NCBI GenBank assembly: GCA_964020155.1
Contig: OZ026549.1
Location: 765,133-829,132 of the forward strand
From: Chondrilla cf. caribensis
Lineage: Eukaryota; Porifera; Demospongiae; Chondrillida; Chondrillidae
Length of the DNA stretch: 64,000 bases
Reading direction: 5' to 3'
Shown here: positions 1 to 64,000 of the stretch, piece after piece
Position numbering within the stretch: position 1 is the stretch's first letter
Layout: each line of letters opens with the position of its first letter
Program-made: the position numbers and the translations under genes
Notes under the pieces: model-generated
Told to the model about the DNA's origin: nothing
What the model saw: only the letters and a program-made list of their open reading frames with translations
Databases searched by the model: none

Positions 1-2433
1 GGAGATGGATCTGTGGAGGTTGTAGCACTTGATATCACATCATGATAGCATGTTTCACCTAGCATTACTTACTTTGTTCCATTGTATTAAACTCCCTCAC
101 AGCTGGTGACTGACTCCTTCTTCTATCATCACCTCCACCAAGTCCCCATGCTGTGATCCTGTACTTAGCACCATGTACTAGTGAGGAGAATGTTCTTGAT
201 GACAACATACCATTATTCCCATACTCTCCCACTACTGGTACTCCAAGGTCCAGTCTGTGGTATCCAATGATAACCCTCTCAATACCACTAGGTATGTTAC
301 CAATGTTCACAGTGATACTGGTATTAGTACTGGTTGTACTAGTTATAGAGAAATCAGTGAGGGTACCTAGTAAAATGAACAGAAATTATGTAATTAAATT
401 GACTCAAATGTGGAGGTCGTGTAAAAAAGGCGGGATGGTACATGTATTAGGAGCAAAGCAGAAAAAATGGCTGCCTGATCCACTTCACCGTTAGGAATGT
501 CCAATGATTTATACCGCTGGATTGACAGTATACACTACACATAACATACATAATATTATGTTACAAAATCAATATCTGAAGAGAAACAACACATAGTAAC
601 TATTACCAGTATGTAATGAGTTTTCAGTGAGTTGCTTCAAGATTTCCCCGGTCAAGTGAGTGAAATTGACACAGGATCTCTCTGCACTGAGTGCCTCATA
701 ACTCGTGAAGTATTCTGGACATCTTATCCAGCATGCATTAGCTGTGATAGAGTTTTTATCTATTATTTAGATAAGATAATCCAAAAGAGCTTTGTGTACT
801 TTCCTCAGTATTGTGAGATGATAGAACCATCTAAGAAACCATGCTTTACCCTCAAGATGGAAGATGAATCAGAAAGAGATCATCTAAAAGAGTATCCCCT
901 ATAGCGGGGTAATTTGGCAGGTACATAATTTGGTGAATTTGCTCGAAAGTAGTCAGTCTTGGCCCTTTTTGCTGTTGTTTCAGGCACTGATAAGTGCCAG
1001 GTAGCCCTAGCAGGACCATTCTCAGTGGTGAACTTCCCTATCCCCGCTTTATCTTCACTCAAGGATATAATACGCATAGGAACCTCAAGTAGCACTGTAT
1101 TTCTTTCCCACCATTGCATTTTCAAATGAATTGAATGTTGAATTGAATTTGCAAAAATTTGAACCGGGTCCTAGAGAACTTTTCACACAACATAGTAATC
1201 ATCTACAGATATTTTCAATTTGTCTCAGTTTAAAGGATCCACTAGGCTCTCACTGTAATGGTGATTTGATATGTTAAGGACATAGCCCTATCAAGGCTAT
1301 GTCCTTAACATATTATTAAAAGTGTATTTTAGAATTACGATTGTATTTATATTCATTATCAATACAGTGATTGACATTATTGGAGTACCAATGAAATGTG
1401 GATACTCCTACTGTGTAATCAGGACATTTACATGTCTGGAAGGTGTAGTACAGTCTGTCCTCACACAATACACTACTCACCATTGGATAGGAACAGGTAA
1501 TGGTAGATACCAGAACAATTCCATTCGAAATTCACAAAATTGTTGAAAGCTCTATCTCTTATGACTACAGTAGCAGTAGATCCATTTATAATCAGATGAA
1601 CATCTTCACTAGTGTCAATTGGTATGGTGTGTCCATAATATGAGAACCTAGCCCCTCTACTGCTCACTCTACACTCAATCCTCCCATCTCCACTATCATT
1701 GTTTGGTGGTTGTAGTTGTTGCTTGTCAGTGATGACTCTCTCATTGAATATCAGTCTCCCATAACTGTGAACAACTTGACCACCTAAAGTACACAGTATG
1801 AAGTAGACCAGTGTATCACCATGAGTATGTACACACTGTACTAGTAATATGCACTTGCAAACACTGACCATTAACCTTCAGTTGAAACTGTTGACTAGCT
1901 TCCCTTTTTTGAGCAGTGACATTACAGGTGTATGTCCCTCCATCACTTGTAGAGGTTATGTTGATGGCTATAATATTGTTGATGACCTTTCTCCCATCAT
2001 ATCCTGTTTGTTGACACGGTCCATTTGGACATGTCCAGTAATAGTTAATCTGTAGTCCATGTGGTATTCCACTGACTCTACAAACTAGAATAAGAGTTGT
2101 TCCTAGTGGTAGAGAACCTGTAGAGTTGAGGGTTGAACTGACTGTGTATCCATCAATCACAACATTAGTAGTAGGAGACTGAGCCCCTGGAATACATAGG
2201 GATAATAAAAGAGAAGGCAGAGTCACACATCCACTTCCAATACCTCTAGTGGACATGCATACTGATAATTTAACATTTGATTCTACGTACAGTTACGTTT
2301 TATATATTTCAAAATGAGATGTATTCTTTAGAATTAAATTCACTTTGTTGGTATTACCTGCCACCACCACCACCCAGCTGAGTATCCCCAGCCCCATCAC
2401 CACAGTCCACAGTATTGATGTCTGTTTGACCAT
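1..2433 (-). CDS. Gene A: class I Ig-Ig-FN3-FN3 receptor, 3' part beyond left edge
   Basis: Exons by position, first to last: 2358-2433 (signal peptide), 1869-2186 (Ig1), 1481-1783 (Ig2), 73-366 (FN3-1) and 1-10, which is the first bases of the FN3-2 exon. Every intron is phase 1 and the exon lengths are multiples of three after the first. The start is the ATG of MVKQTSILWTVV, a hydrophobic 25-residue leader. Ig1 shows LVCRVSG, then YYWTCPNGPC, then DGGTYTC, the B-strand Cys, core Trp and F-strand Cys of an Ig fold. Ig2 has IECRVSS and WNCSGIYHY. FN3-1 ends in AVREFNTMEQSK before a GTAAGT donor. Second FN3, stalk, membrane segment and tail lie outside the window. A binding role in adhesion or recognition at the cell surface is inferred from the domains only. 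Intron 3 (367-1480) holds a transposon fragment and a perfect hairpin. Confidence 0.85.
898..1125. mobile_element. Truncated MITE (CCGTATAGCGGG family) in intron 3 of gene A
   Basis: Begins with CTATAGCGGGGTAATTTGGC and shares the internal TTTCAGGCACTGA-AAGTGCC and CAGGACCATTC blocks with the full element at 4315-4830. The far terminal repeat is missing. It sits at the same place as the copy in gene E. Confidence 0.75.
1269..1313. repeat. Perfect 19-base hairpin in intron 3 of gene A
   Basis: Left arm ATATGTTAAGGACATAGCC at 1269-1287, loop of 7 bases, perfect inverse at 1295-1313. I did not see it in the corresponding intron of gene E. Confidence 0.9.
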
Positions 2434-2582
2434 ATCCTCTCCACTGTAGTCTGAACACACTACAAACCTACTAAGTTGATCTCTACACTCTCTACTGATA
2501 GTCTACACTCACTGAGACTAGAATGAGCAGTTCCACACTGGGACCACTTTAAATAGCGCACACACCAGCGGTCGCTAATGCA
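2434..2582 (-). promoter_or_regulatory. Gene A promoter and 5' UTR
   Basis: TATTTAAA box at 2548-2555 on the minus strand, 115 bases upstream of the ATG. The stretch between box and ATG is nearly identical in all eleven visible promoters. Confidence 0.7.
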
Positions 2583-3350
2583 CTTGTTGACGGTTCACCT
2601 CTGAATCAATGATTTCCTATCTACTCTTTATCAATATTGTTGCCATGGTGATGATATTCCGCTATCATGTTGGTTGCATGCACTCAGTGCACAGTACATT
2701 GCCTTATAAGCCAATGAGAACAGTGTGTACGTATGTTAGATACACTGAATTTGTACAGTCGGTGGTGTTTTGTTCATTCCCATTCATCTGTAGCAGGAGG
2801 ACATTTTCACTTCACTCAGCTTCAATTTGTGGTTCAACTGTGTATAGTCTTCATTGTAGTCTGATAAACATTTCCTTATAAGTCATTGTAGTGCTACATT
2901 GTGTCACCAAACAGAAAGTACCTGTTTCAACTGACATTTTCCAGGTGTCTAGCTTGTGGGCTAGTACATAATACACGTTCTTATACAAACCATTCTCATA
3001 TTATGCATGTACGTATGTACACAGATACATATATCCAAAGAGATATGTGTACGTATGTCTAAGACATTACACCACATCGCCACAATTGATGTGGTGTTAT
3101 AACTTATCTCTCATCTAGTAGAAAGGGCTGTATTGAACATTGTCAAGTTTACTGTGTCTAATAGGCACTTGTATATACTTCACTTTATATTTGTGATTCA
3201 TGTTTGTGTAACACAGAATTGCTGTGCTATATAATCAATGTTGATCAATGTGCTCAAATTGACTATTAAATTACTGATATGAATATTAGTGATGTGCTTG
3301 TTATTACAGAATTTAGGTATATATAATATTATCAATTGATAATATTAATG
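2583..3350. other. Intergenic spacer between genes A and B (class I type)
   Basis: No gene seen. Contains the block GTTGCCATGGTGATGATAT (about 2639-2657) and CTTATAAGCCAATGAGAACA, both repeated upstream of B to G. The right half is the region downstream of the gene B 3' UTR. Confidence 0.75.
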
Positions 3351-3471
<121 letters not shown>

Positions 3472-3474
3472 GTG

Positions 3475-6400
3475 TCACTCTTCATCTTTCTTCTTGTTCT
3501 TCTTCTGTGTCTTGTCCACTTCAGCATAAAGTCCTTCCACAGTAGCTGAAGGTGTTGGTTGAGTAGCGTTCTCCTCTCCATCTTGTTGTTGTGGAGTGGA
3601 GTCACTATCAGCTGAAGGCTCATAGCCTAGTCCAGTGTCAGGTGGTGGAGAGGGTTGTTTCTGCTCTATTGACTGAAAAGCCTTTGCTTTCTTGTCTTTC
3701 TTTCCTTTCTTCTTTGGTTTGTTGACCTCGGCATAAAGCATCTCTCCATGAGGGTCTACCGGGTGTTCTTTCTCTTCAATTGTCTTCTCTTTCCCTTTCT
3801 TCTTCTTCGGTTTATCCACCTCAGCATAGAGTAGCTCTGGATCCTGAACATCTTGTTTCTTCATTTTGTTGTCATCTGTCTTGATCCCCTTTCTTTGCTC
3901 TTCATACCTTTCATCAGTAGTGTCCTTGTCCTCTTCACACCCCAATGATATAGCTGGTTGAGGTTGTAGTTTGACATCCACGTCATCATAGAGTCCTCCA
4001 GTATTGTAGTTGTCCTGTCGATGTTCTCCTGTTGGTAGAATATATTCATGTACATCTTGTTCCCCAGCCTGTAATGTGCTGTAGAGTACCGGTTGATCAT
4101 GGAGTGTTGTTCTGTTCCTCTTTCCTCTTCTTGTCCTCACAATTGCAATAGTACAAATGATGATTACTAGTACAGAGACCAGTAGTAGTGTGATCCCTCC
4201 AGCAGCTGCTCCGATGATTAGAGTGAGAGCATCTAATATCCAATTATTACATAATAGTACATACATGTTAAGATTTTCATAGCATACTGGCAAGACTATT
4301 AAGACTTATACTGGTACCGTATATCGGGAAAATTGGCGGGTACAAAATTTGGTGGATTTGCTGAAAAAGGTTATTGGCAGTTTTAAATTTGGCGGATTTG
4401 CCCAAAAATATTCTATTCCTTTCAGTCTTGGCCCGTTTCGCCGTTGTTTCAGGCACTCAGAAGTGCCTGGTAGCCTTAACAGGACCATTCTTAGTGGTGT
4501 ACGTCCCTATCTTTGCTCTGTCGTCGACCAGGGTATAATTAGCATAGGAACCTTGAGTAGTACTGCATTACTTTCTTTCCCACCGTCCCATTTTCGTAAG
4601 GCATCAAAACTTGCCTCATGCGTTCATTCATTTGCTCTGTTCTTTCTTAGAAAGAGTGTTATATTTGTGCACGGGTCTTTCCTTTAGTAGATACTGCAAA
4701 GGAGCCATGGTTGTACTCTTTATTGACGTTACACAATGAATTGGAACAAATTTTGACGGTTTTTATATTTGGTGGATTTCGTGAAAACTACCAAATTAAA
4801 ACCTTCGCCAATATTTCCCGCTATACGGTATATATTAACATACTGGTAAGACCATGTATTATTCCAATATTGTTACACTAATGTTAACTGTATCATATTT
4901 CCTATAGTCATCGAGTGTGCCTCACTCAATTACATATAGTGTGCATGACTACAGGATTGAATTGTGCAATTTATGTATTTACATATGTTTACAGTAAGGA
5001 TGCAGATTCTTATATTATGTGATCACGTTAGTGACACTGCTATGATAGGACGCAGAGAGAAAAAAATGGAACTGTTGTCATAAGAAGGTTACCGTAGTAA
5101 TTACACCTGTAGCAAGACTTAGTATAGCTGTCAGTAAAAGAACAGTTTACTTGAGGTAGGCTCCGTTGTGACTGAACTGGAGTTCAAAGATGGTGAACCT
5201 ACATGGATATGATATAAAACAGCCATTTATAATTCTGATAACATGATATTATACAGATTAGCATAATACATTTAATAATGCATGAAGTAATATGTACGCT
5301 TTTCATTGCTATTTCAACTCTATTATCTTACTTGTGGTAGTAGTATCTGATGGTGGAACATTAGATGAAGGCTCTGTTTCAGGACTGGTCGTATTTCCAT
5401 TTTGTGTTGTAGGTTTTGATTCGACTGTAGTTGGCTGGGTTGTTGTTGGAGATGCTGATGTATCTGTTGCCCCTAGTTAATAAAACCAAAGTTTCATTGA
5501 TTGTACATTCAATTTTAATAATAATAATATATACCATTCAAATACCATTCTCAATTCCTCCAACTCTAACTCACTTGTACTCTCCACTGTTGAGTTATGT
5601 ACATAACTAATAGGTTGACTTCCTCCCCCACCTCCAGCTGAGTTGACAGCTACCACTGTGATGTTGTTGTAGGTCTGCCCTCTCTCTAGTCCTGTTAAGT
5701 TGTAGTAGTTGATGTTGTTTGTAGTGTGGATCTCTTGTTGTGTTCCATTTTGTGTAGTGTATTTGATGATGTAATGTCGTATGTCTCCATTAGTTTCTCT
5801 AGGTGGTATCCAGTTTAGTTCAATCCCTTCATCACACACTCTAGTTATAGTGAGGTATCTTGGAGGAGATGGGCCTATGTAGAAATAAAATACGTGAGAT
5901 ATTAAGGACTGGAGGTTCAATATTATGCAACATATGCATATTCATCTGACTTTTTTCCAAAGTGGTAACCTCCCTCACAGCTGGTGACTGACTCCTTCTT
6001 CTAAAACCACTCCCACTAAGTCCCCATGCTGTGATCCTGTACTTAGCACCAGGTACTAGTGAGGAGAATTCTCTTGATCTACTGGTCCCACCATTATTCA
6101 CATACTTTCCTACTACTGGTACTCCAAGGTCCAGTCTGTGATATCCAATGATAACCCTATCAATACCACTAGGTATGGTACCAAAGTTCACAGTTATACT
6201 GTTTTCAGCACCGCGTGTACCAGTTATAGATACATCAAGGAGGGTACCTATGAATTGCGTACATAAACTGTATAATAAGTCAATAAAAGTATACATATGT
6301 GTGTGTGCATGCAGGAAGACTTAGTCAGTCAGTTTCATTAGCGGGCATAATCACTATTTGCAGGTGTCCACAAGCATGGTATTGAAGAATACTGAGTAAA

Positions 6401-7370
6401 TGTGTTATTATCTGTTGAACGCTTTTTGTCTGTATGTATATTCTCACATGATACACTACTCACCTCTTGATAAGAACAGGTAGTGGAAGATACCAGCACA
6501 ATCCCCTTCAACATTCACAAAATTGTTGAGTTTTTCATCATCTATGTCAGCAGTAGCAGTATGTTGCGTTTTGGTCTGATGAATGTCATAATTGAACATA
6601 GCCCCTCCACTGCTCACTCTACACTCAATCTTCCCATCTCCTCTATCACTGTTTGGTGGTTGTAGTTGTTGTTTGTCAGTGATGACTCTCTCATGGAGTA
6701 TCAGTCTCCCATAACTGTGAACAACTTTCCCACCTAAAGTACACAGTATGAAGTAGACCAGTGTATCACCATGGGTATGTACACACCGTACTAGTAATAT
6801 GCACTTGCAAACACTGACCAGTAACCTTCAGTTGAAACTGTTGACTAGCTCCCCTTCCTACAGCAGTGACATTACAGGTGTATGTCCCCCCATCACTTGT
6901 AGAGGTTATGTTGATGGCTATAATATTGTTGTTGATCTTTCTCCCAGCATATCCTGTTTGTTGACACGGTCCGTTTGGACATGTCCAGTTATAGTTAGTC
7001 TGTAGTCCATGTGGTATTCCACTGATTCTACAAACTAGAATAACAGTTGTTCCTAGTTGTAGAGTAGCTTTAGAGTTGAGGGTTGAACTGACTGTGTAGC
7101 CATCAATCACCACTTTAGTGTGAGAGTGACCCCCTGTAATGCACAAACATGATACAAAGAAGGTCATTGTTGAATACTATGGCTATGTCCTTTCCCAATC
7201 CCTATGGTGTGAACGTGCTAGTGGAGTAGTCATAAATTTAGTTTCTAGGTGAAATGTGTTTATCCGAATCTCATTTCTTTGGTATTACCTGCCTCCACCA
7301 CCACCACCACCCAGCTGAGTATCCCCAGCCCCATCACCACAGTCCACAGTATTGATGTCTGTTTGACCAT
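3475..7370 (-). CDS. Gene B: class I Ig-Ig-FN3-FN3 receptor with ITIM-like LYAEV tail
   Basis: Eight exons: 7289-7370, 6819-7133, 6464-6733, 5951-6247, 5575-5874, 5332-5472, 5151-5198 and 3475-4232, giving about 736 residues. Order: signal peptide 1-27, Ig1 28-132, Ig2 133-222, FN3-1 223-321, FN3-2 322-421, Thr/Ser/Pro stalk 422-484, membrane helix about 490-516, tail to 736. FN3-2 has the hallmarks ELNWIPPRE, YIIKYTT, YYNLTGLERGQTY and AVNSAG. The helix GGITLLLVSVLVIIICTIAIV is followed by the stop-transfer stretch RTRRGKRNR. The tail has VLYSTL and LLYAEV, which fit the ITIM consensus [ILVS]xYxx[ILV], plus GLYDDV, MLYAEV and GLYAEV, which fit it loosely. Lysine runs follow each LYAEV. Such motifs, when phosphorylated, recruit SH2 phosphatases or kinases in known receptors; that role is inferred here. 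Its Ig2 is 11 residues shorter than in sister genes. The intron 4233-5150 carries a transposon. Confidence 0.9.
4233..5150 (-). other. Intron before the tail exon of gene B
   Basis: Contains the 516-base MITE at 4315-4830. The remainder (4831-5150) is homologous to the same intron in D and F; nothing else seen. Confidence 0.75.
4315..4830. mobile_element. Full-length MITE (CCGTATAGCGGG family) in gene B
   Basis: A 516-base element with terminal inverted repeats: TACCGTATATCGGGAAAATT at the left and the inverse of TACCGTATAGCGGGAAATAT at the right. The outermost TA on each side is consistent with a TA target duplication as in Tc1/mariner-type elements. It has no transposase frame. Its AT-rich interior has repeated TTTGGTGGATTT motifs. 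It lies in the intron before the tail exon of gene B. Confidence 0.85.
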
Positions 7371-8430: not shown

Positions 8431-8564
<134 letters not shown>

Positions 8565-8567: not shown

Positions 8568-11500
8568 TCACTCTTCATCTTTCTTCTTGTTCTTCTTCTG
8601 TGTCTTGTCCACTTCAGTATAGAGTCCTTCCACAATAGCTGAAGGTGTTGGTTGAGTAGTGTTCTCCTCTCCATCTTGTTGTTGCGGAGTAGAGTCACTA
8701 TCAGCTGAAGGCTCATAACCTAGTCCAGTGTCAGGTGGTGGAGAGGGTTGTTTCTGCTCTATCAACTGTGGAACCTTTGCTTTCTTATCTTTCTTTCCTT
8801 TCTTCTTTGGTTTGTTGACCTCGGCATAAAGCATCTCTCCCTGAGGGTCTACTGGGTGTTCTTTCTCTTCGATCCTCTTCTCTTTCCCTTTCTTCTTCTT
8901 CGGTTTATCCACCTCAGCATAAAGTAGCTCTGGATCCTGAACGTCTTGTTTCTTCATTTTGTTGTCATCTGTCTTGTTCTCCTTCCTTTGCTTATCATGC
9001 CTTGTATCACTGGTGTCTTTATTCTCTTCCTGACCTGATGGTTTAGCTGGTTGAGGCTGTATTTTGACATTCACATCATCATAGAGTCCTCCAGTATTGT
9101 AGTTGTCTTGTTGATGTTCTCCTGTTGGTAGAGTATATTCATGTACATCTCGTTCCCCAGCCTGTAGTGTGCTGTAGAGTACCGGTTGATCGTGGAGTGT
9201 TGTTCTGTTCCTCTTTCCTCTTCTTGTCCTCACAATTGCAATAGTACAAATGATGATTACTAGTACAGAGACCAGTAGTAGTGTGATCCCTCCAGCAGCT
9301 GCTCCAATGATGGGAATGGGAACGTCTGTATCAGGAGTAGTTGCTAGATTATCTAATTGTGCAGGAGGGGATTATATTATGACAATGGCAACAACCTCAA
9401 TGTTTATAATACATTCATAGTTATTAAGCTTCATGTCAAGGTTTGTACCAATTGTGTGACTTCCTCATGGTGATAATAGTGGAAGTGGAGTGAGGAGAAA
9501 GGATCATTATTTACATAATATTATTATAAATACAGTTAATGTAGTAGTGATATACGTATGTGATATTTTTCTAATACTTTACTGAATGGATTGACATATG
9601 CAATGTTCATTCTGAATTAGAATATTGATTCGTGGCAACCTCTGCAAATGTTGTGCTTGATTTAGGTGTACCTGTGATCCTGGTTGTGGAAGATGGTGTA
9701 GGTGTTCCCGGTAACTCTAATTGAGAGCAAAAATAATAATTATGATTGGAGTGAGAGCATCTAATATGTGAGTAATACATAATAGTACATACGTATTAAG
9801 CAAGCCATAACATACTGACTATTAAGACCCACACTGGTACTAACATACTGGCAAGATCATGTATAAATCTGATGTACACTGAATGTCAACTTTGTCATAT
9901 CTCATTGAGTCCCTGAGTATGCCTCACTCATATAGATGTGCATGACAATAGGATTGAATTGTGCAATTAATGCATATTGTGTTTAGAGAAGGATGCAGAT
10001 TCCAATATTATGAGATTGAGCTAGTGATACCACTATGATAGGACACAGTGCAAAATTATAGCTTGTGTCATTAGAAGGTTGTAATTATGCCTGTAGCAAG
10101 ACTTATAGTATGGCTGTAAGTAGTCAAGTATCAGTAGCGATAGCAGTTTACTTGAGGTGGGCTCCGTTGTAACTGAACTGGAGTCCGAAGATGGTGAACC
10201 TACATGAATATGATATAAAACAGCCACTTAAAATCAAGATACATGAATATATATACAGGTTAGAGATAAGCACAGCACATTAAGAATGTATATATTAATT
10301 CATGCACACAGAGTTGTTATTTCAACTCTATTATCTTACTTGTGGTAGTAGTATCTGATTTTGGAATATTAGATGAAGGGCTCATCATATTGTCATTTTG
10401 TGTTGTAGATCCTGATTCAACCGTAGTAGTCTGGGTTCTTGTTGGAGATACTGATGTTCCTGTTGCCTCTAGTCAATGAAACCAACATTTCATTAATTGT
10501 ACATTTAATAATTTAATGATAAATCCCATTCAAATGCTTCTCTTAATACCTCCAACTCTAACTCACTTGTACTCTCCACTGTTGGGTTGTGTACATAACT
10601 TGTTATAACTTGACTTCTTCCCCCACCTCCAGCTGAGTTGACAGCTACCACTGTGATGATGCGGTAGATCTGTCCTCTCTCTAGTCCTGTTAAGTTGTAG
10701 TAGTTGGTGTTGTTTGTAGTGTTGATCTCTTGTTGTGTTCCATCTTGTGTAGTGTATTTGATGATGTAATGTCGTATGTCTCCATTAGGTTCTCTAGGTG
10801 GTATCCAGTTTAGTTCAATCCCATTATCAAACACTCTAGTTATAGTGAGGTGTCTTGGACGAGATGGATCTGTGTAGAATTAGATAGTACTTGAGGTACA
10901 ATATTACATGACGTGTGTATTCCTGTACATCAACTCACTTTGTTCCATTGTAGTAACCTCCCTCACAGCTGGAGACTGACTCCTTCTTCTATCATCACTT
11001 CCACCAAGTTTCCATGCTGTAATCCTGTACTTAGCACCAGGTACTAGTGAGGAGAATGTTCTTGATGGCCCCATACCATGATTCACATACTCTCCTACTA
11101 CTGGTACTCCAAGGTCCAGTCTGTGATATCCAATGATAACCCTCTCATTACCACTAGTACCAATGTTCACCTTGATAGTGGTATCAGTACTGGTTGTACC
11201 AGTTATAGAGACATCTGAGAGGGTACTTATCAATTCTGTAGACAGACAATATAATAAGTTGAGTAATGTGTATGTATGTGTATATATACAGTCAGTGTGA
11301 TTTGCAAATGATGTGTTGAATAACAATGACAAAGTTGGGCACATTCTCAATATTGTAGATGTCTTCATTTATGGTATTAAAGATATTGAAGAGGCGTGTT
11401 CTTATATATTCTGAAATTTCTTGTCCATATGACATTGTACGTGCATGATACGCTACTCACCATAAAATAAAAACATGTAGTGGTAGATACCAGCACAATT

Positions 11501-12406
11501 CCCGTCAAAATTTACAAAATTGTTGAAAGCTCTATCTCTTATGACTACAGTAGCAGTAGATCCATTTCTGATCTGATGAACATCTCCATTAGTGTCACCT
11601 GCTATATGGCGTCCATGATATGAGAATCTAGCATCTCCACTGCTCACTCTACACTCTATCCTCCCATCTCCACTATCATTGTTTGGTGGTCGTAGTTGTT
11701 GTTTGTCAGTGATGACTCTCTCATGGAATATCAATCTTCCATAACTGTGAACAACTAGACCACCTAAAGTACACAGTATGAAGTAGACCAGTGTATCGCC
11801 ATGGGTATGTACACACTGTACTAGTGATATGCACTTGCAAACACTGACCAGTAACCTTCAGTTGAAACTGTTGACTAGCTTCCCTTCCTTGAGCAATGAC
11901 ATTACAGGTGTATGTCCCTCCATCACTTGTAGAGGTTATGTTGATGGCTATAATATTATCATTGATCTTTCTCCCAGCATATCCTGTTTGTTGACACGGT
12001 CCATTTGGACATGTCCAGTGATAGTTAGTCTGTAGTCCATGTGGTATTCCACTGATTCTACAAACTAGAACAATAGTTGTTCCTAGTGGTAGAGTATCTG
12101 GAGAGTTGAGGGTTGAACTGACTGTGTATCCATCAATGACTACATTGGTAGTGGTAAGAGAGAGAGTGCCTGAATTACATAGGGATAATAACAGAAAAGG
12201 CTAAGTCACTTATCCTCTCTCAATACCTCTGGTGGACATGTATATCTACTAAGAATTTAACATCTACAGTTCTAAGTTATTTTTCAAATGAGATGTATTC
12301 TTTTGAAATTCACTTTGTTGGTATTACCTGCCTCCACCACCACCACCCAGCTGAGTATCCCCAGCCCCATCACCACAGTCCACAGTATTGATGTCTGTTT
12401 GACCAT
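8568..12406 (-). CDS. Gene C: class I Ig-Ig-FN3-FN3 receptor with LYAEV tail, long stalk
   Basis: Nine exons: 12328-12406, 11849-12169, 11461-11763, 10939-11235, 10567-10869, 10340-10468, 10152-10199, 9672-9716 and 8568-9352, about 769 residues. Signal 1-26, Ig1 27-133, Ig2 134-234, FN3-1 235-333, FN3-2 334-434, stalk 435-508, helix near 521-547. The FN3-1 exon uses an acceptor 9 bases upstream of the family position because the usual AG has become AA; the new site keeps frame. The stalk has a third small exon (9672-9716) seen also in E and, longer, in L. The tail exon begins further upstream than in B, adding NLATTPDTDVP before the helix. The last tyrosine motif reads GLYTEV instead of GLYAEV. 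The frame is open throughout all exons that I translated. The small stalk exons are the least certain part. Confidence 0.88.

Positions 12407-13487: not shown

Positions 13488-13490
<3 letters not shown>
12557..13490. other. Intergenic spacer between genes C and D
   Basis: Copy of the class I spacer; no gene seen. Confidence 0.75.

Positions 13491-13575
<85 letters not shown>
13491..13575. repeat. (CA)n microsatellite, 3' UTR of gene D
   Basis: About 85 bases, next to the stop of gene D. An imperfect CA-rich lead-in precedes it from about 13474. Confidence 0.97.
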
Positions 13576-13578
<3 letters not shown>

Positions 13579-18318: not shown

Positions 18319-19351
<1,033 letters not shown>

Positions 19352-25632: not shown

Positions 25633-25674
<42 letters not shown>

Positions 25675-25676
25675 CA

Positions 25677-25738
<62 letters not shown>
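25633..25738. repeat. (CA)n microsatellite, 3' UTR of gene F
   Basis: About 106 bases with CG interruptions near 25668-25680, next to the stop of gene F. Confidence 0.97.

Positions 25739-46944: not shown

Positions 46945-46947
<3 letters not shown>
45406..46947. other. Intergenic spacer between genes I and J (class II type)
   Basis: Longer than the H-I spacer because the roughly 480-base block is present twice in tandem (about 45830-46310 and 46320-46800). Short frames in one copy are broken in others. Confidence 0.72.
45830..46800. repeat. Tandem duplicate of a 480-base spacer block
   Basis: Two direct copies share GGATCCATTACC, CTTGGTGTTTTCAA, GATAACCTCTCAAAG and GCTTGGAGAGCACATTGAAT in the same order. 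Single copies exist at about 40490-40970 and, diverged, at about 51610-52050. Confidence 0.7.

Positions 46948-47018
<71 letters not shown>
46948..47018. repeat. (CA)n microsatellite, 3' UTR of gene J
   Basis: About 71 bases next to the stop of gene J. Confidence 0.96.
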
Positions 47019-50000: not shown

Positions 50001-51210
50001 TTGATACTCACCATTTTTGAAGTAAATGTACAATGGCCATACTCTTCCATCCTGACTTTTATCATCAGTGCACTGATATCGTCCATTTTGATTTAGTTGA
50101 GAAGTTTGTATTGTTGTATTCTGACCTTGTCTGGTACCATTTATGGTAGTACCATCCTCAAACCTGAACCTTCCATAACTGTCACTCCTACCAATGACAC
50201 ACTTCAGTCCATTTGGTATCTGTTGTGGATCAGTTATTAGTGTGTTCTTTAGGAGAAGTTTACTGTCATTGTAGAGAGCAAGAGTACCTAGCAGTGGAGG
50301 ATACAGATGTTGTGGTATGATGGATTAGTGTGATAGAAGGTAGACATCTTACTCACCTTTACCGAGTGTTTGTGGGAGCAAGGGAGTTGTTCTCCCTACC
50401 CCAAATGTAGTCCCATTTCCGTATCCTAATCTACACTGATACTGGATGCTACCAGTAGTAGTAGTATTGGTTACCACAATGACAATAACATTGTTGTAGA
50501 CTTTTCTGTATTCATTATCACATGGTCCACGAGGACAGGTCCACTTGTACTGTATACTTGGTGGCAGTGGTGAAACTGTACACTCCAGTACAACAGTTGT
50601 ACCAAGTGGGAATTTTGTTCCTTTTGCTTCACTATTGGAAGTGTATATTTTCAACGGCAACAGTTCAGCAGCTATACGAAGACATTATTGAGTACCGGTT
50701 ACCTACTTTCGATGCCCTATTTAATCCATGCACACAATGTCAGCCATTACTGATAAGGAGTACATAGCTCTGATAAAAGTGCATATTTGTAGTACCCTTG
50801 AAAGCATACTTAAAAGAGTAAAGCTCAGCAAGTTAGACAGTTGTAGTCTTAGTTCGAATCACTGATACTGTGCTATACTATGCATTTTGTTGATAATTTA
50901 TCTATAGTGAATGTAGATAAATTGAACCTTTTCCCCCTAAGACTTGTAAACATTGTGTATATGCATTGAAGTTACGTTACTGTAAGTAATATGGCCAGGT
51001 TCTGTTGTACGTAAGCACTAAATCTTGATAAGGAAGACAACATGATAAGTGTGAACATTGCTGGTCATTTGATATTACTTGTCATTACGTGGGAATTGCT
51101 GAATAATGATCATTTCTTGTTTCTGTACCTGGCTTCACCACCACCACCACCCAGCTGAGTATCCCCAGCCCCATCACCACAGTCCACAGTATTGATGTCT
51201 GTTTGACCAT
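47024..51210 (-). CDS. Gene J: class II receptor with LYAEV tail, stalk exon broken
   Basis: Exons: 51129-51210, 50357-50671, 50012-50287, 49380-49682 and 47024-47784, about 578 residues when the stalk exon is left out. Signal 1-27, Ig1 28-132, Ig2 133-224, FN3-like 225-325, helix about 333-359. The exon equivalent to the stalk of G (47912-48045) has an in-frame TAA at 48008-48010 and a length of 134 bases, so it cannot be used without truncation. The next exon, starting GDNNLATYIG, is phase-compatible with the FN3-like exon directly, so exon skipping restores a full receptor with almost no stalk. Ig2 is longer than in G by three residues (DDKSQDGRVW). The tail has DKPRKKKKGKEK and lost several residues around ENKDTTRND. 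Confidence 0.82.
48933..49213. mobile_element. GGGGCTGCC-family MITE in intron 4 of gene J
   Basis: Starts GGGGGTTGCCTACAGTAGCC and ends GACGGCAGCCCCACGAG. It lies in the same intron as the copies in G and I, so the insertion is older than the duplications. Confidence 0.75.
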
Positions 51211-53569: not shown

Positions 53570-54170
53570 GATATACAGTAATCAATGCTGTTCGCAGTAT
53601 ATTCTGAATAAACGTTTCTCGGTACTGTTAGTATACTGTGTGTACTACTGTGTGATGTTGACATGGTTGTTGACATGGTTATTGACATGGTTGTTGACAG
53701 GATTGTTGACATGGTTATTGACATGGTTGTTGACAGGGTTGTTGACATGGTTGTTGACATGGCTGTTGACATGGTTGTTGACGTGGTTGTAACAAGATTA
53801 CTTATAAATATTCTCTATGAGTATAATATACTATATAAATATACCATGTGCACTATACTAGTAAGTATATGTCATATTACAATTATGTTATGTGTAATAG
53901 TACATTTCTCTATGTGTATGTAACATTGATAGTATGTATGTGTATGTTCAGTATGTTGATTATTGCTTGTATCATATGTATGCACTGTATGTCTATAGTA
54001 GTATACACTATCCATATATTGCTGACCTTGCATTTATCCATGCAATTGTATAACTGTTCTTGTGAGTGAACTGAAACTATTCTGTTTCATCCAGTAAATA
54101 CCCTGCTCCATTGTTAGTTGTGATGGTTTTGTTGTTGTTGAATGACTTACTGGTTGTTGATGAGACACTT
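53570..54170. repeat. Segmental duplicate, left copy (partner 58680-59410)
   Basis: Shares ATATTCTGAATAAACGTTTC, GTACTGTTAGTATACTGTGT, the minisatellite, and GTAAATACCCTGCTCCATTG in the same order and strand as the right copy. Confidence 0.85.
53656..53795. repeat. 12-base minisatellite (TTGTTGACATGG)n
   Basis: About eleven units with small changes (ATTGACATGG, TTGACAGG, TTGACGTGG). Frames through it give meaningless repeats on both strands. Confidence 0.9.
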
Positions 54171-54663: not shown

Positions 54664-55196
54664 CTATATGTAATCATGGTTCTCTTCCTGGTCTGTGTGC
54701 CTTGAATTGATGATATTTGGATGCTTCTTCACAACCAGTGGTATGTATTGATGGTTTTCATCCATCTTGTTTGAATTCACTAGTGTGCATTGATGGTTTC
54801 CATCCATCAAGTTCAAATTCAGTGGCATGTACTGATGGTTTCCATCCAACGTATGTGAATCCAGTGGCTGATATCCAATGTCTGTATGACTGCAGTGATC
54901 TCCTTTATCGGGCAATGGAGGGGGCTGGAACATGAATCTACTTAATCTTTTTTGTATCTGGCTATAAATGTGAATTTGATCATAGTAGCTGTCGTCCTCC
55001 TTGGTGTGTGACCATATGTTGCATGTTCTCCCTCTCCTCACTCTGCACACAACAACCAGTGCCACAATGATGGCAGTGATCAGAATGACCAGGAATATTG
55101 GTATCACTATAGCCAGAGCTGTCCCTGTGAGAGATATCAGTAGTATGAGATGTTACTTTGTGTGTGTATGTGCGTGTGTGTGTGTCTGTGTGTGTG

Positions 55197-55247
<51 letters not shown>

Positions 55248-58200
55248 CATTAAACGTAGTGTGTCTATATAACATCAGCAAATGTGAAGTAGCGCGACTG
55301 TGAAATGGGACTGGTCGTAGTTGATGTGTTGATGTAGCTGATCGTGTAGTACCTGGTCCAGCTGTTGATGTAGGCCTCACTGTAGCTGTACATGAGTAAT
55401 ATGATACAGAAAATATCAAGTTACATCAGTTTCACCTAATATTATTCAACTCAACAATCAATGGATTTGATTTCAGTTCCACTCTATTCACTACAATTAT
55501 CATTGTGTATTTCACAACATGGCATTCCAGTTACACCAAGTCTCAATACACTACAGTGTATTACATAATGTTTGTATGATGTACCTCTTATGAGAATAGA
55601 CCTACGTATGTAGTTATTTGTGAACAGGTAACTAATACTGTAGTACGTACACTGGACATACATAACTCATATACGTACACAGTATTATGTCCATATATTC
55701 ACACTCCATCATTGCACACAAGCTCCTAGACTGCATTCAAGCCAAAATGTGCTATTTACTTTAAGACAGTGCACTTACAGGATGAAGTAACATACACGTA
55801 TATGTATATATACCTATATTATATATGTATTATATTGTATAATACATATAATATATATCTGGTCATATGCTCTGTACCTATTAGTTTTTTTTTAGCAATT
55901 GGTCCTGATGTTCACATGCATACATGTTTCTGTAGTTAGTATTCACATCACTCTTAATACCTCCAACTCTAACTCACTTGTACTCTCCACTGTTGGGTTG
56001 TGTACATAATTTCTTATAAGTTCACTTCCTCCCCCACGTCTAGCTGAGTTAACAGCTACCACTGTGATGAAGTGGTAGGTCTGTCCTCTCTCTAGTCCTG
56101 TTAAGTTGTAGTAGTTGATGTTGTTTGTAGTGTTGGTCTCTTGTTGTGTTCCATCTTGTGTAGTGTATTCGATGATGTAATGTCGTATGTCTCCATAAGG
56201 TTCTCTAGGTGGTATCCAGTTTAGTTCAATTCCATCATCACACACTCTAGTTATAGTGAGGTGTCTTGGAGGAGATGGAGCTGTGGAGGATGTACATGTA
56301 TGAGATGTTGTAGGCACTTATCCACTGATTAGTACTGTGTGCACATTGCTTATGTGACCAATTATGTGACTTATGACACTAAATTGATTAGACATTGTAT
56401 TAACTCACTTTGTTCCATTGTAGTAACCTCCCTCACAGTTGGTGACTGACTCCTTCTTCTATCACCACCTCCACCAAGTCCCCATGCTGTGACCCTGTAC
56501 TTAGCACCAGGTACTAGTGAGGAGAATGTTCTTGATGATCTCCCACGATTATTCCCATACTCTCCTCCTACTGGTACTCCAAGGTCCAGTCTGTGATATC
56601 CAATGATAACTCTAGCAATAGCACTAGGTATGGTACCAATGTTCACCTTGATACTGGTATCAGTACTGGTTGTACCAGTTATTGACACATCAGGGAGGGT
56701 ACCTAATAGGAGATGGATATGTGTGTGTTATATATGCAATGTGATGTTTGACAGTATAACTCCACCCACTACTCACCATTGGATAAGAGCAGGTAGTGGA
56801 AGATACCAGCACAATTCCCTTCAAAATTCACAAAATTGTTGAAAGCTCTATCTCTTATGACTACAGTAGTAGTAGATCCACTTATGATCTGATGAACATC
56901 TCCACTAGTGTCATTTGTTACAGTGCGTCCATGATATGAGAACATAGCTCCTCCACTGCTCACTCTACACTCAATCCTCCCATCTCCACTAGCATTGTTT
57001 GGTGGTTGTAGTTGTTGTTTGTCTGTGATGACTCTCTCATTGAATATCAATCTCCCATAACTGTGAACAACTTGACCACCTAAAGTACACAGTATGAAGT
57101 AAACCAGTGTATCACCATGGGTATGTACTAGTAATATGCACATGCAAACACTGACCAGTAACATTCAGTTGAAACTGTTGACTAGCTTCCCTTCCTTGAG
57201 CAGTGACATTACAGGTGTATGTCCCTCCATCACTTGTAGAGGTTATGTTGATGGCTATAATATTGTTGTTGATCTTTCTCCCATCATATCCTGTTTGTTG
57301 ACATGGTTCATTTGGACATGTCCAGTTATAGTTAGTCTGTAGTCCATGTGGTATTCCACTGATTCTACAAACTAGAATAAGAGTTGTTCCTAGTGGTAGA
57401 GTAGCTGTAGAGTCAAGGGTTGAACTGACTGTGTATCCATCGATCACCACATTAAGAGTAGTGAGAGCCTGAGTCCCTACATACATGTACATTGAGAGAG
57501 AGGAAGGATAATCCAATTTTGAAAAGGCACATGCATTATGTATTATATTGGAATAGGGATTTCGGACTGTAATGTTTCCAACTGTTGCTGGGAAAATCCG
57601 TTTGTATTCAGGAGCATTGAGAAACTAGTTTGGCGAAGAGAGTCCTTGATCTGTCCATTTCAACCCTGTGGGTCATCTTTGCCCTGGGAGTTACCCTCCT
57701 TGAATATGGTTTGCGTGCGGAAGTCATGTGACCAGAAGTGTCATGGCAGGAAGCCCAAACCATATTTAAGAACGGTAACTCCCAAGCCACCTCGACTGCT
57801 GAAAATGACCCACAGGGTTGAAATAGTCAAATGAAGAACTCAATTAACCAGACTACATTTCTTAATGCTTCTGAATCCAAACTGATTTTCCAAACGTGTA
57901 TAATTTTATTAATACAATATTATCATATATAAGTTCATCACATTGTTTATTATTAAGTACAATCCTACAATAAGAAATGTTGGTAGTCAAATGGCATAGT
58001 TTGGCCAGTGGTGAGTGTTCAATAGCCATCGTAGCATCGTCTTTTCCTCCTATATACATACAGCCATCTTATACAGTGTCTATACTTTCTTCATAGCTGG
58101 ACACAATTCCACCTCAAAGTACTCGTCCATATGAACTGTATCTGTGCACTTGAGACATGTGACAGTGTGTGATCTTGTTTTGTTACTGTACAGTAATTCT

Positions 58201-58411
58201 ATGGTTTTACTGTACTATCGAACTAGGTCAATTACTGAACAAACACTGTCAACACTTCTCTAGTTAATGAGCTTCAAATAAGGAGAAAATCAACCTGTAT
58301 ACTGATTTTTGCTACTGTTGATGTATTCGTGTTACCTGCCACCACCACCATCCAGCTGAGTATCCCCAGCCCCATCACCACAGTCCACAGTATTGATGTC
58401 TGTTTGACCAT
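54664..58411 (-). CDS. Gene K: class I ectodomain with a different, short cytoplasmic tail
   Basis: Exons: 58336-58411, 57156-57476, 56777-57079, 56409-56702, 55978-56280, 55353-55385 (tentative stalk) and 54664-55124, about 596 residues. Signal 1-25, Ig1 26-132, Ig2 133-233, FN3-1 234-331, FN3-2 332-432, stalk 433-443, helix about 449-471 (IFLVILITAIIVALVVV). The ectodomain is as close to A to F as they are to each other, but the last exon is unrelated to the LYAEV exon. It encodes SYYDQI and IGYQPL, which fit the ITIM pattern, two NHQYxPL-type repeats, a C-terminal HDYI and a proline stretch QPPPLPDKG that could bind SH3 domains. There are no lysine runs and no (TG)n tract after the TAG. 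This suggests a receptor with the same kind of ligand-binding part and a different signalling output. The stalk exon rests on phase and splice sites only. Confidence 0.83.
55153..55244. repeat. (GT)n microsatellite in an intron of gene K
   Basis: Interrupted GT repeat on the plus strand, so opposite in orientation to the 3' UTR tracts. It lies just upstream of the last exon of gene K, about 30 bases from the splice acceptor on the gene strand. Confidence 0.93.
57657..57824. mobile_element. Foldback element in intron 1 of gene K
   Basis: Outer arms ATTTCAACCCTGTGGGTCAT (57657-57676) and its exact inverse (57805-57824). Inner arms GGGAGTTACC...ATATGGTTTG pair imperfectly with 57755-57783. Likely a MITE or other foldback repeat. 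Confidence 0.82.
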
Positions 58412-58765: not shown

Positions 58766-58893
58766 GTGTTGACATGCATGGTTGATGACATAGTTGTTGA
58801 CATGGTTGTTGACGTGGTTGTTGACATGGTTGTTGACATGGTTGTTGACATGGTTGATGACATGGTTGTTGATGTGGTTGTTGATGTGGTTGT
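58766..58893. repeat. 12-base minisatellite, second copy
   Basis: Same unit as at 53656-53795, with flanks that also match, so it belongs to a segmental duplicate upstream of gene K. Confidence 0.9.
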
Positions 58894-60057: not shown

Positions 60058-60171
<114 letters not shown>

Positions 60172-60174
60172 GTG

Positions 60175-63100
60175 TCACTCTTCATCTTTCTTGTTCTTCT
60201 TCTGTGTCTTTTCCACTTGAGCATAGAGTCCTTCCACAGTAGCTGAAGGTGTTGGTTGAGTAGTGTTCTCCTCTCCATCTTGTTGTTGTGGAGTAGAGTC
60301 ACCATCAGCTGAAGGCTCATAGCCCAGTCCAGTATCAGATGCTTCTTGTTGTCGTTCTTCAGACTGTTGAGGGGCTTGCTTCAACTTGGCCTTGTCTTTT
60401 TTCCCTTTCTTCTTTGGTTTGTTCACCTCGGCATAAAGTTGCTTTCCCTGTTTTTCTTGTTCATCTTTCTCTTTGGGTTTCTTCTCTTTTTCCTTCTTCT
60501 TTGGTTTTTCAACCGTCAAGTTGGCATAAAGTAGCTCAGGATCTTGAATGTCTTCCTTCATCATTTCTTCCTCATGTTTCTCCTTGCTCTTCTCTTTATC
60601 AGGTTGAGCATACAATTTGTGTGGACTAATAGTGTCTGTAGCCTTTCTCTTATTATTGACCTCCGACATCTTCTTGTCTTCTCTATAATCACCTGTCACT
60701 TCATACCCTGATGGTATGGATGGTTGAGGTGGTAGTTTGATGCCAACTTCATCATATTGTCCTCCAGTATTGTAGTTGTCTTGTTGATGTTCTCCTGTTG
60801 GTAGAGTGTTGCTGGGTGTGTCTTGTTCCCCAGCCTGTAGTGTGGTGTAGAGTACCGGTTGATCGTGGAGTGTTGTTCTGTTCATCTTTCCTCTTCTTGT
60901 CCTCACAATTGCAATAGTACAAATGATGATTACTAGTACAGAGACCAGTAGTAGTGTGACCCCTCCAGCAGCTCCTCCGATGATGGGAGTGGGAACGGGA
61001 ACATCTGTATCAGGAGTAGTTGTTGGATTATCTAATTGTACAGAAGTGGATTATATGACAATGGCAACAACCTCAATGTTTTATAAATATAGTAATATAT
61101 TTATAGTTATTAAGCTTCATGTCAAGGTTTGTACCAATTGTGTAACTTCCTTATGGTGATAATAATGGAAGTAGAGTGGAATCATGTATTGTGAGAATAT
61201 ATGCATAATTATTTTCCTATTCTATACTGAATGGATTGACATATGCAATGCTCATTTAAAATTAGCACAGTTTTGTGGCAACCCCTGGAGGTGTTGTGCT
61301 GATTCAGGTGTACCTATTATTGTAGTATTGTGTGGTACAGTTGAACCCGCAGATGGTGTTATGGTTGTGGAAGATGCTGTAGGTGTTCCTCGTGACTCTA
61401 GTTGATGAAGACACGATTAAAAAGATAATATTATTGGTAACATTTAGTAGGTACAAAATTTGGCAATTTTGGCATATCTTGAAATTTCATAACAAACACA
61501 CCTGTAGATGGTGTGTTTGATGTAGATGTTCCTGTGTTGCTTGTTATTACAATCACAGTGGTACCTTTAGTTGGTGTGCTGGCTGTAAGAGATGATGTAA
61601 AATCTTGTGGTAACTCTAATTGAGGAAGGATATTCGGTATATCCGACATTATCACCTATACTTCCAACTCTAACTCACTTGTACACTTCACTGTTGGGTT
61701 GTGTTCATAACTTGTTATAGGTTGACTTCCTCCCCCATCTCCAGCTGAGTTGACAGCTACCACTCCGATGTTGTAGGTCTGTCCTATCTCTAGTCCTGTT
61801 AAGTTGTAGTAGTTGATGTTGTTTGCAGTGTTGATCTCTTGTTGTGTTCCATTTTGTGTAGTGTATTTGATGATGTAATGTCGTATGTCTCCATTAGGTT
61901 CTCTAGGTGGTATCCAGTTTAGTTCAATCCCATCATCAAACACTCTAGTTCTAGTGAGGTGTCTTGGAGGAGATGGATCTGTGTAGAATCAGATAACACT
62001 TGAGGCACAATATTACACAACGTGTGTATTCCTGTACATCAACTAACCCTTCTCCATTGTAGTAACCTCCCTCACAGCTGGTGACTGGCTCCTTCTTCTA
62101 TCATCAGCTCCACCAAGTCCCCATGCTGTAATCCTGTACTTAGCACCAGGTACTAGTGAGGAGAATGTTCTTGATCCATCACGATGATTTACATACTCTC
62201 CTACTACTGGTACTCCAAGATCCAGTCTGTGATATCCAATGATAACCCTCTCAATACCACTAGGTATGGTACCAATGTTCACCTTGATACTGGTATCATT
62301 ACTGGTTGTACCAGTTATAGAGGCATTGGGGAGAGTACCTATGAGAAAAGAACACTGTATGTACACATTAAATTTATTAATTCATCCAATTGATTTCTCA
62401 TTTATAATGTTCATCTTGATGATAAGTATATTCTTGATACGTAATACAGTGGAACCTCTATTAGAGGACTCTCCCAATAAAGGACACCATAGTACCTCCC
62501 TACAAAGGACATTTTCTTAGACCCCAAAAATGAACTTTCCTATAGTGTTAAAACTTTTTAGGGGCTGCCGCAGGCAGCCCCTATATTGTTTTCATTTCGA
62601 CTTCCGGTATGTAACGCTCGTCCGATAGATAGATATATATATATATTATAGATATATATATAATATGTGTTCCTACGCGTAACCGCAACAATGAATTTAT
62701 ATTAGAATTTATATTGCGCGAAATAAAGATGGCCGATTTCGAACGCTGACAATTTGAAATTGGGCTAGAATTCGTGCGCTGAAGCTCCGCCGAACGTAAT
62801 ACCTTCAGCGAAGGTTCTTCTAAACCTAACAAAGACGCCAAGTAATTCGAGTGCGGGGGGCGGCAGCCCCACGAGTTTTTAAACTCGAATTACTTGTTTC
62901 ACCTCTGAAGACTGGACAACCTCTATACAGTGGACAAATTAGCTGGTCCCAATGTGTCCTATATAAAGAGCTCGAGGTTCCACTGTATCATTAAATGTAG
63001 TTTGCCTTAGTAACCATAATATTTGTCTGATGTATGGGCACTTCATTGATTTTTCAGTTTACTTTATATTATTTTCATTTCAACTTCCAGTAAGTTATGC

Positions 63101-64000
63101 TACATATATATATATATATATATATATACGTATATAAAACGAGCACGCCTCATTTCAAGTGACCCATTGTCTTATTTAAAGTTATGTCAACAAATCAGTG
63201 TGTACATCCAAAATTTTAATGCTGTATCTGTCCTAGGGTGTTGTAGTGTTTGGTTTCACATTTTATTATTATTGTATGTTATGTATATATTTATATATGA
63301 TATAGTAATTATAATATAAAAAAAATAAAAAATAAAAAATAAAAATAAATATATATCTACAGTATATGTAATGTGTGTTCCTACATGCAACCGCAACAAT
63401 GATTTTATATTATATTTTATATTTTGTGTGAAGAAAGACGGCCAATTTCAAATGACAAGAATTTGAAATTGGGTGCTGAAGTTCCGATGAACGTAATAAC
63501 ATCAGCGAAGGTTCTTCCAAACCCAAGAAAGATGCCCAAGTAATTTAATAGTGTGGGGCAGCAGACCCACGAGTTTTTGTTTGTCATACTCAAGTATGCT
63601 TTTGCAATTACACTATGTACTAGTCTGGTAAAACATGTTACACTACTCACCATTGGATAGGAACAGGTAGTGGTAGATACCAGCACAATTCCCTTCAAAA
63701 TTTACAAAATTGTTGAAAGCTCTATCTCTTATGACTAAAGTAGCAGTAAATCCACTTATGATCTGATGAACATCTCCACTAGTGTTAGTTGATACATTGC
63801 GTCCATAATATGAGAACCTAGCCTGTCCACTGCTATTTGTACACTCAATCCTCCCATCTCCACTATCATTGTTTGGTGGTTGTAGTTGTTGTTTGTCAGT
63901 AATGACTCTCTCATGGAATATCAGTCTCCCATAACTGTGAACAACTTGCCCACCTAAAGTACACAGTATGAAGTAGACCAGTGTATCACCATGGGTATGT
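60175..64000 (-). CDS. Gene L: class I receptor with enlarged diverged LYAEV tail, 5' part beyond right edge
   Basis: Visible exons: 63651-63953 (Ig2), 62048-62338 (FN3-1), 61679-61978 (FN3-2), 61502-61615 and 61314-61397 (stalk), 60175-61031 (helix and tail). Leader and Ig1 lie beyond 64000. The two stalk exons are Thr/Ser/Pro-rich and longer than in the sisters (38 and 28 residues). The helix exon begins NPTTTPDTDVPVPTPIIGGAAGG. The tail is about 30 residues longer. It has VLYTTL, GQYDEV, a new KLYAQP, LLYANL followed by TVEKPKKKEKEKKPKEK, QLYAEV, LGYEPS and GLYAQV. So the number of LYA-type tyrosines rises from three to four and the spacer differs, with Glu/Lys-rich charged stretches likely to be helical. 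The start of the tail and the final 50 residues match the family closely, while the middle is diverged. Confidence 0.84.
62447..62985. mobile_element. Pogo/Tigger-like MITE with nested insertion, intron 3 of gene L
   Basis: Ends CAGTGGAACCTC and the inverse of CAGTGGAACCTCGAG, with TA on both sides. The interior has AGGACA-type blocks and is split by a second element at 62561-62870. Confidence 0.82.
62561..62870. mobile_element. GGGGCTGCC-family MITE nested in the pogo-like element
   Basis: A 310-base element that starts GGGGCTGCCGC and ends with the inverse GCGGCAGCCCC. Internally it has CTTCCGGTATGTAACGCTCG, a (TA)n stretch and GTAACCGCAACAATGAATTT. Best preserved of five copies. Confidence 0.82.
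63060..63569. mobile_element. Diverged GGGGCTGCC-family MITE in intron 3 of gene L
   Basis: Has the internal TTTCAACTTCCAGTAAGTTA and GCAACCGCAACAATGATTTT blocks and an end GTGTGGGGCAGCAGACCC, but is enlarged by (TA)n and A-rich sequence (63100-63360) and lacks a clear left end. Confidence 0.65.

Follow-up and report, generated by a model that had tools for sequence, protein, structure and literature searches.

The window analysed here is a 64-kb stretch of the Chondrilla cf. caribensis genome (C4:765133-829132; C4 is the window's contig in an assembly of 137.0 Mb and 37 contigs). It is filled by twelve receptor genes, A to L, for predicted membrane proteins. The original prediction of twelve such genes in one orientation was confirmed: all lie on the minus strand, with open frames and splice sites. 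Genes B to K (10) are complete, and A and L are cut by the window edges. The gene plan comprises a leader, a first immunoglobulin (Ig) domain (Ig1), a second domain (domain 2), one or two exons of fibronectin type III (FN3) type, Ser/Thr-rich stalk exon(s), and a transmembrane (TM) segment followed by a tail. TM and tail form a single open frame in genes B to L. Stalk exons were identified by eye in gene B and by script in some, not all, of the other genes.

Gene array and exon structure

Two divergent ectodomain types are present. Type A has the order Ig1-domain 2-FN3-FN3, and type B, found in genes G to J, consists of Ig1B, Ig2B and one FN3-like domain. The earlier statement that every gene carries Ig and FN3-type domains holds as a general plan and fails in detail, since G to J differ and the second 'Ig' is unproven.

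The following positions are window coordinates, and for genes A to K the second number is the start codon of the leader. Gene B (3475-7370), read by eye, has a leader, Ig1 (6819-7133), domain 2, two FN3 exons, two stalk exons and a TM-tail exon of the type with repeated LYAEV motifs (match 3478-4218). Type-A ectodomains with LYAEV tails also make up genes C (8568-12406, tail 8571-9311), D (13582-18167, tail 13585-14328), E (19355-24569, tail 19358-20098) and F (25744-29361, tail 25747-26493). The type-B genes end in LYAEV tails as well: G (30544-34705; Ig1B 33668-33988, Ig2B 33326-33592, FN3-like domain 32697-32999, tail 30547-31284), H (35886-39940, tail 35889-36626), I (41176-45254, tail 41179-41919) and J (47024-51210, tail 47027-47761). 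Gene K (54664-58411) joins a type-A ectodomain to a second tail type (54667-55128) containing SYYDQI, IGYQPL and one pair resembling an immunoreceptor tyrosine-based activation motif (ITAM). Gene L (60175-64000), cut at the right edge, shows an LYAEV tail (60178-60984), FN3 exons (61679-62338) and domain 2 (63651-63953); its Ig1 and leader lie outside, the start codon being at 65266. Its tail is 70-72% identical to the other LYAEV tails in the window.

Only the 5' part of gene A is inside the window (73-2433; leader 2358-2433, Ig1 1869-2186, domain 2 1481-1783, first FN3 73-366), the remainder lying to the left. An LYAEV tail at -8245 to -7388 may belong to gene A or to a further gene. Several genes at locus L028 and in the left flank (L009-L016) appear to have at least two Ig-domain 2-FN3-FN3 modules before one tail, and for this reason gene A is possibly a two-module gene with the tail at -8245. 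The claim that all genes except A and K show repeated LYAEV motifs thus stands for the ten tails of B to J and L and for K, whose tail is different; the tail of A is outside the window.

Phase-1 splice signals (AG and GT) were found close to the edge of homology in all 42 domain exons in the window and in 108 of 113 in a 224-kb region that includes it, in a search that considered phase 1 only. As a check on the phase, strong donors close to the 3' edge were counted: they were in phase 1 in 102 of the 113 exons, in phase 2 in four and in phase 0 in none.

Ig1 of gene B exceeded the Pfam cut-offs for Ig_3 (30.4 bits, cut-off 30), Ig_2 (29.8, cut-off 27) and I-set (27.1, cut-off 23.7). With at least one domain above the cut-off of a curated Ig profile, the predicted gene B protein would belong to the immunoglobulin superfamily (IgSF). 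Its second FN3 domain scored 58.7 bits (cut-off 25) and the first only 15.4. Domain 2 of gene B had no Pfam match. A fold search with domain 2 gave no significant match; its list held Ig domains of titin, NCAM and CD79b among bacterial, viral and other beta-sandwiches, and the Ig identity of domain 2 is therefore not proven. No domain of gene G exceeded the Pfam cut-offs, Ig1B reaching 20.4 bits for Ig_3 and the other two domains chance level only. With type-B Ig1 as query we obtained five strong copies (four in the window, one at C4:541.9 kb), followed by type-A Ig1 domains at roughly 30-45% identity.

Several repeats lie between or beside these exons. At the score cut-off used, seven of the ten LYAEV tail exons had a (CA)n microsatellite immediately on their 3' side (3351-3469, 8431-8562, 13488-13576, 19232-19349, 25633-25738, 46937-47018 and 60059-60169), which looks as if copied along with the exon. 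Related arrays of a 12-base repeat flank the odd-tailed gene K (53656-53790 and 58777-58893) and could point to a site of recombination. Between the tail exon of gene H and its ectodomain exons lies a tandem repeat with a 15-base unit (6.6 copies, 36863-36961).

Relatives and extent of the family

The spliced gene B protein was compared with 5.77 billion proteins, and the 7,988 candidates sharing most words with it were scored; the search detects only relatives that share exact 5-residue words. Two of the scored candidates were hits at E <= 0.001: a weak, unnamed Ig/FN3 protein and A0AA96MNW2 of the sponge Halisarca dujardinii (750 residues), the sole full-length relative found, with 45% identity over 90% of the query. 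A0AA96MNW2 is colinear with gene B through ectodomain, TM and tail, and shares leader, Ig, domain 2, two FN3 domains, stalk, TM and LYAEV tail. It is a single protein of another sponge, and we know of no gene cluster for it. The nearest full-length relative found being a sponge protein, the earlier assignment to a non-bilaterian animal fits. Neither of the two hits of this word-based search was named Alr or came from the vertebrate leukocyte receptor complex (KIR/LILR). The predicted structure of whole A0AA96MNW2 had a mean pLDDT (predicted local distance difference test score) of 41.9 and was not used for a fold search. We consider the genes more than chance because the copies are open, spliceable and conserved and have an independent full-length relative.

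In UniRef, A0AA96MNW2 is named 'Insulin-like protein receptor', which would suggest that the family consists of growth-factor (insulin-like) receptors. The name is not supported by its domains: Pfam found Ig and FN3 domains in it but, with E values allowed up to 0.1, neither a kinase nor a receptor-L domain. In the tail frames of genes B and K Pfam likewise detected neither domain, here with E values up to 1. The intracellular kinase domain that characterizes a receptor tyrosine kinase or insulin receptor thus appears to be absent from the tails searched. A literature search yielded no paper explaining the name, and hormone receptors would not be expected to form so large and variable an array. 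We regard an insulin-like receptor family as very improbable.

The complex extends past the window, as predicted from the two cut genes. A genome-wide Ig1 query gave 225 candidates, of which the best 150 were scored, all of them significant. These fell on three contigs (140 on C4, eight on C2 and two on C6). The matches on C4 were located at 0.32-0.85 Mb (71), 2.41-3.24 Mb (51), 4.15-4.56 Mb (17) and 3.73 Mb (1). They count domains and not genes, because left-flank genes appear to carry repeated modules. The two halves of the 0.32-0.85 Mb group have opposite orientations, the Ig1 matches being on the plus strand as far as 494 kb and on the minus strand from 574 kb. To the left of the window the array continues past the 80 kb read; in the right flank (80 kb, read in part) the outermost copy found begins near window coordinate 82,700. 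Further dense Ig_3 groups, among the best 150 of 929 candidates, lay on C1 (4.48-4.64 and 6.83-6.95 Mb), C12 (about 2.0 Mb), C16 (3.11-3.30 Mb), C17, C22 and C23.

The tails fell into several classes. Seventeen distinct LYAEV tails were found in the genome, all at C4:672-826 kb. The K tail had four copies, all at C4:819-841 kb, and a third tail lay at C4:844-845 kb. Fragments of the third tail occur just 3' of two K tails (C4:836541-836783 and 840115-840231), as expected if tails were replaced over time, leaving a fossil, or if they are alternative last exons. Short tails gave 64 matches. A related long tail, LYTxV, was found at 31 places, alternating with 19 short tails in 21 runs on one strand at C4 2.49-3.24 Mb; here the rows of one place were merged, a C-terminal fragment with two stops (C4:2546061) was left out, and 10 of the 31 places match the TM-proximal part only.

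The array could be an artefact of haplotype duplication, or a decaying set of pseudogenes. Two short tails 13.6 kb apart are indeed identical in protein over the query, and one of the 17 LYAEV tails has an internal stop. Such an origin does not agree with a mean dS (synonymous divergence) of 0.04-0.25 among the window copies, depending on the domain, nor with open frames, kept splice sites and a relative kept in another sponge. We give it next to no credence.

Tail motifs and ectodomain variation

We read the tails for the strict immunoreceptor tyrosine-based inhibitory motif (ITIM; [SIVL]xYxx[LIV]) and for an ITAM-like pair (YxxL/I-x(6-12)-YxxL/I), with expectations from 2,000 shuffles of each tail. 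The reading covered 15 of the 17 LYAEV tails (those at C4:672 and 683 kb lie outside the region read), all four K tails, the third tail, one of the 31 LYTxV places, the Halisarca tail and 24 of the 64 short tails. Strict ITIMs were present in 15 of 15 LYAEV tails, one to four in each against 0.12-0.32 expected, and none of these tails had an ITAM-like pair. The motifs were mostly VLY[ST]TL and LLYAEV or LLYTKV. Among the LYAEV copies, LLYAEV fits the strict definition and MLYAEV and GLYAEV do not, VLY[ST]TL being a further ITIM; the tails are thus ITIM-like as first described, and only some of their LYAEV copies are ITIMs. The LYTxV tail that was read had one ITIM and no ITAM-like pair. The 24 short tails gave the opposite result to the LYAEV tails: no strict ITIM, and an ITAM-like pair in 17 (expected 0.00-0.01). 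Outside the 2.4-3.2 Mb zone, YxxL-x10-YxxI/L was found in 17 of 19 short tails. We use the term ITAM-like because of the 10-residue spacer. Because the tail copies are related to one another, the motif counts cannot be treated as independent; the weight lies on the conservation of the motifs and on the fact that LYAEV and short tails have none in common.

These tails are carried by the same ectodomain families. The tails of the type-B genes G to J are 89-96% identical to those of the type-A genes B to F. At C4:537.5-542.2 kb a short tail follows a type-B ectodomain, the one containing the Ig1 copy at 541.9 kb, and type-A ectodomains are joined to LYAEV, K, third-type and short tails, the last at loci L025, L026 and L028. 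Both ectodomain types thus occur with LYAEV and with short tails. Similar ectodomains on ITIM-type and ITAM-type tails are the mark of paired receptors, and the predicted genes show this arrangement. The ITAM-like short tails were not part of the original prediction and make the comparison with paired receptors stronger. Vertebrate KIR and LILR genes are likewise clustered, and in them, too, similar ectodomains occur in both long inhibitory and short activating forms. Their short activating forms use charged TM residues and ITAM adaptors, whereas the receptors described here have the ITAM-like pair in the tail itself.

To compare the parts of the receptors, we assembled selection sets from which exons shorter than 240 nt or with a stop were removed (Ig1, 25; domain 2, 23; first FN3, 24; second FN3, 24; LYAEV tail, 15). 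An alignment mixing all exon fragments (A1) was dropped, domain 2 being misaligned in it. Ig1 had been proposed as the variable domain; instead, the first FN3 and domain 2 were the most diverse among copies (mean column entropy 0.71 and 0.55, against 0.37 for Ig1 and 0.29 for the second FN3). The pooled pairwise ratio of nonsynonymous to synonymous change (pN/pS) in the 224-kb region was 0.80 for Ig1, 0.99 for domain 2, 1.01 for the first and 1.09 for the second FN3, and 0.58 and 0.65 for the LYAEV (15) and K (4) tails. The tails are more constrained than the ectodomain.

Amino acid change was locally in excess. Residues 39-60 of domain 2, a segment delimited by the predicted strands of the domain and not by variation, had a pN/pS of 2.44 (column bootstrap 1.36-5.15; pN 0.196, pS 0.081), and the remainder of domain 2 a ratio of 0.72 (0.48-1.05; pN 0.085, pS 0.118). 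Windows of 15 columns in the first FN3 (starts at 46, 51 and 56) had a pN of 0.17-0.30 versus a pS of 0.08-0.15. Along the tail exon (genes B to J and L), pS was mostly below 0.1 at the TM-proximal and C-terminal ends and mostly 0.2-0.65 in the middle. This patchwork suggests patchwise homogenization by gene conversion, which would also help ectodomains and tails recombine. Since gene conversion and recombination can bias the ratios, we put weight on the contrast between parts rather than on single values.

These data bear on a reading of the family as adhesion molecules that sort cells homophilically in development or reaggregation, the tyrosine motifs only tuning adhesion. Ig and FN3 ectodomains with Ser/Thr-rich stalks are indeed a common adhesion design. 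The sponge IgSF has also mainly been tied to adhesion and intercellular recognition (PMC11999971; here and below, statements refer to the accessible part of each cited source). Adhesion would not lead one to expect shared ectodomains whose tails divide into an ITIM-type and an ITAM-like class, or a local pN/pS above 1, and we consider it improbable.

Candidate signalling partners and proposed function

Candidate partners for both kinds of tail are present in the genome. On C12, SH2 matches are followed by protein tyrosine phosphatase (PTP) matches on one strand. The exon at the SH2-SH2-PTP junction had PTPN11 as its best PDB match (E 2.7e-36, across C-SH2 and PTP; PTPN6, 4.2e-29). The catalytic exon matched PTPN11 at 6e-32, receptor-type PTPs with two such domains scoring better. 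A second SH2/PTP locus of the same layout, seen as profile matches only, lies at C12:4.910-4.917 Mb. Tandem SH2 exons on C17 best matched SYK (E 2.9e-29), then ZAP-70. A putative SHP-2-like phosphatase and a putative Syk-like tandem SH2 gene in the same genome make the mechanism proposed below possible and do not show it. SH2 matches also cluster on C14 (1.55-2.14 Mb), and arrays of PTP matches were seen on C6 (4.3-4.85 Mb), C17 and C18; counterpart signalling genes may therefore have multiplied too.

On balance we think that the cluster probably encodes a paired system of inhibitory and activating recognition receptors at the cell surface, a view that rests on predicted proteins. The comparable recognition complex first proposed is upheld in its clustering and ITIM-type motifs and is larger than claimed; its role in recognition is the inferred part, and the tail classes appear to strengthen it. 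In the proposed mechanism, domain 2 and the first FN3 would bind ligands on other cells with their variable faces, upon which Src-type kinases would phosphorylate the tails. ITIM tails would dampen the response by recruiting the SHP-2-like phosphatase, ITAM-like tails would start it by recruiting the Syk-like kinase, and the balance of the two tail kinds would decide between tolerance and rejection. The phase-1 borders, and tails that are nearly identical although their ectodomains diverge, lead us to propose turnover by exon exchange, which would generate new binding specificities and leave the signalling parts intact.

Several observations weigh against a paired recognition system. The split between ITIM and ITAM-like tails is not clean, because all four K tails and the third tail contain both motif kinds. 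All five short tails read at 2.4-3.2 Mb miss the ITAM-like pair, their spacer being too long, and so do the short tails L030 (YATM at the end) and L026 (divergent, with an early stop). The Halisarca tail has one strict ITIM only and no ITAM-like pair, and the motif reading covers most tail classes in part. The ITAM-like spacer is 10 residues; classical ITAM spacing is 6-8, and up to 12 is accepted in looser definitions. The Syk-like locus is known from its tandem SH2 exons, the kinase part lying outside the sequence seen. On the side of selection, the window alone gave pN/pS values of 0.76 for Ig1, 0.80 for domain 2, 0.86 for the first FN3, 2.05 for the second FN3 and 0.45 for the tail, with dN (nonsynonymous divergence) exceeding dS in 5 of 28 pairs for domain 2 and 20 of 21 for the second FN3. 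The type-B domains (4 each) had pN/pS values of 0.64-0.86. Owing to these window-only and type-B values, whole-domain ratios do not single out domain 2. The codon-model omega (Ig1 0.79, domain 2 1.06, first FN3 1.07, second FN3 1.18, tail 0.68), where near 1, could be due in part to weak constraint, to gene conversion or to errors of the model. Finally, the high ratio at residues 39-60 comes partly from low pS (0.081 versus 0.118), and the structure model of domain 2 behind this segment is of moderate confidence.

Known recognition systems resemble the complex in part. The Hydractinia Alr genes are also clustered IgSF recognition genes of a non-bilaterian, with reported ITIM/ITAM-type motifs (PMC12065747, PMC11999971); the ectodomains here differ in being Ig-domain 2-FN3-FN3. 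The Botryllus fester co-receptors (FcoR), encoded in a recognition locus, are type I receptors whose tails contain ITIM, hemITAM or core Y-x-x-I/L/V motifs, and at some loci motifs are exchanged via alleles or splicing (PMC12065747). The FcoR ectodomain is Ig-sushi-Ig-Ig, and the FcoR locus is genetically tied to fusion, whereas here we have genes alone. Sponge receptor tyrosine kinases with Ig domains are reported to be upregulated after grafting (PMC2248247); the tails tested here differ from them in having no kinase domain. By analogy, the Chondrilla complex likely works like KIR/LILR, Alr or FcoR; we claim neither family membership nor homology. Other sponge receptors mentioned in immune papers are TIR-Ig receptors (PMC8242945, PMC12909245) and putative cytokine receptors that combine Ig, FN3 and kinase domains (PMC8242945). 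A sponge receptor complex of the present kind was not found in the literature searched, mostly papers outside subscription and in their accessible parts.

The choice of ligand is the least certain step. We favour self/non-self (allogeneic) recognition, since the recognition loci of cnidarians and ascidians show convergence on ITIM/ITAM-type tails (PMC12065747) and sponges tell self from non-self in grafts (PMC5450542). Microbial recognition would fit the sequence data as well and is a serious rival: the receptors would be paired in the same way, with microbes or symbionts as ligands instead of the cells of other individuals. Copy number, tail classes and the local excess of amino acid change fit pathogen- or symbiont-driven families equally well, and diversified NLR, GPCR and SRCR families are reported from the sponge Amphimedon (PMC8242945). 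On the whole we find microbial ligands rather unlikely. In its full form, the reading based on self/non-self recognition is that of a sponge histocompatibility complex of well over 100 paired Ig/FN3 receptors, in which ITIM tails with an SHP-2-like partner and ITAM-like tails with a Syk-like partner would share fast-changing ectodomains reshuffled as phase-1 exons. We advance it tentatively, as a possible account that we would not yet call probable.

According to a 2025 review, allorecognition candidates are not conserved among sponges, cnidarians and ascidians, and the mechanisms of invertebrate allorecognition were called a complete mystery (PMC12065747). With a sponge complex built on the same tail logic, the convergence on ITIM/ITAM-type tails would reach a third, deeper branch, and there would be defined genes, exons and segments whose genotypes could be compared with the outcome of grafts. 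If true, the histocompatibility reading would put the whole logic of paired recognition of the natural killer type in the oldest or near-oldest animal branch.

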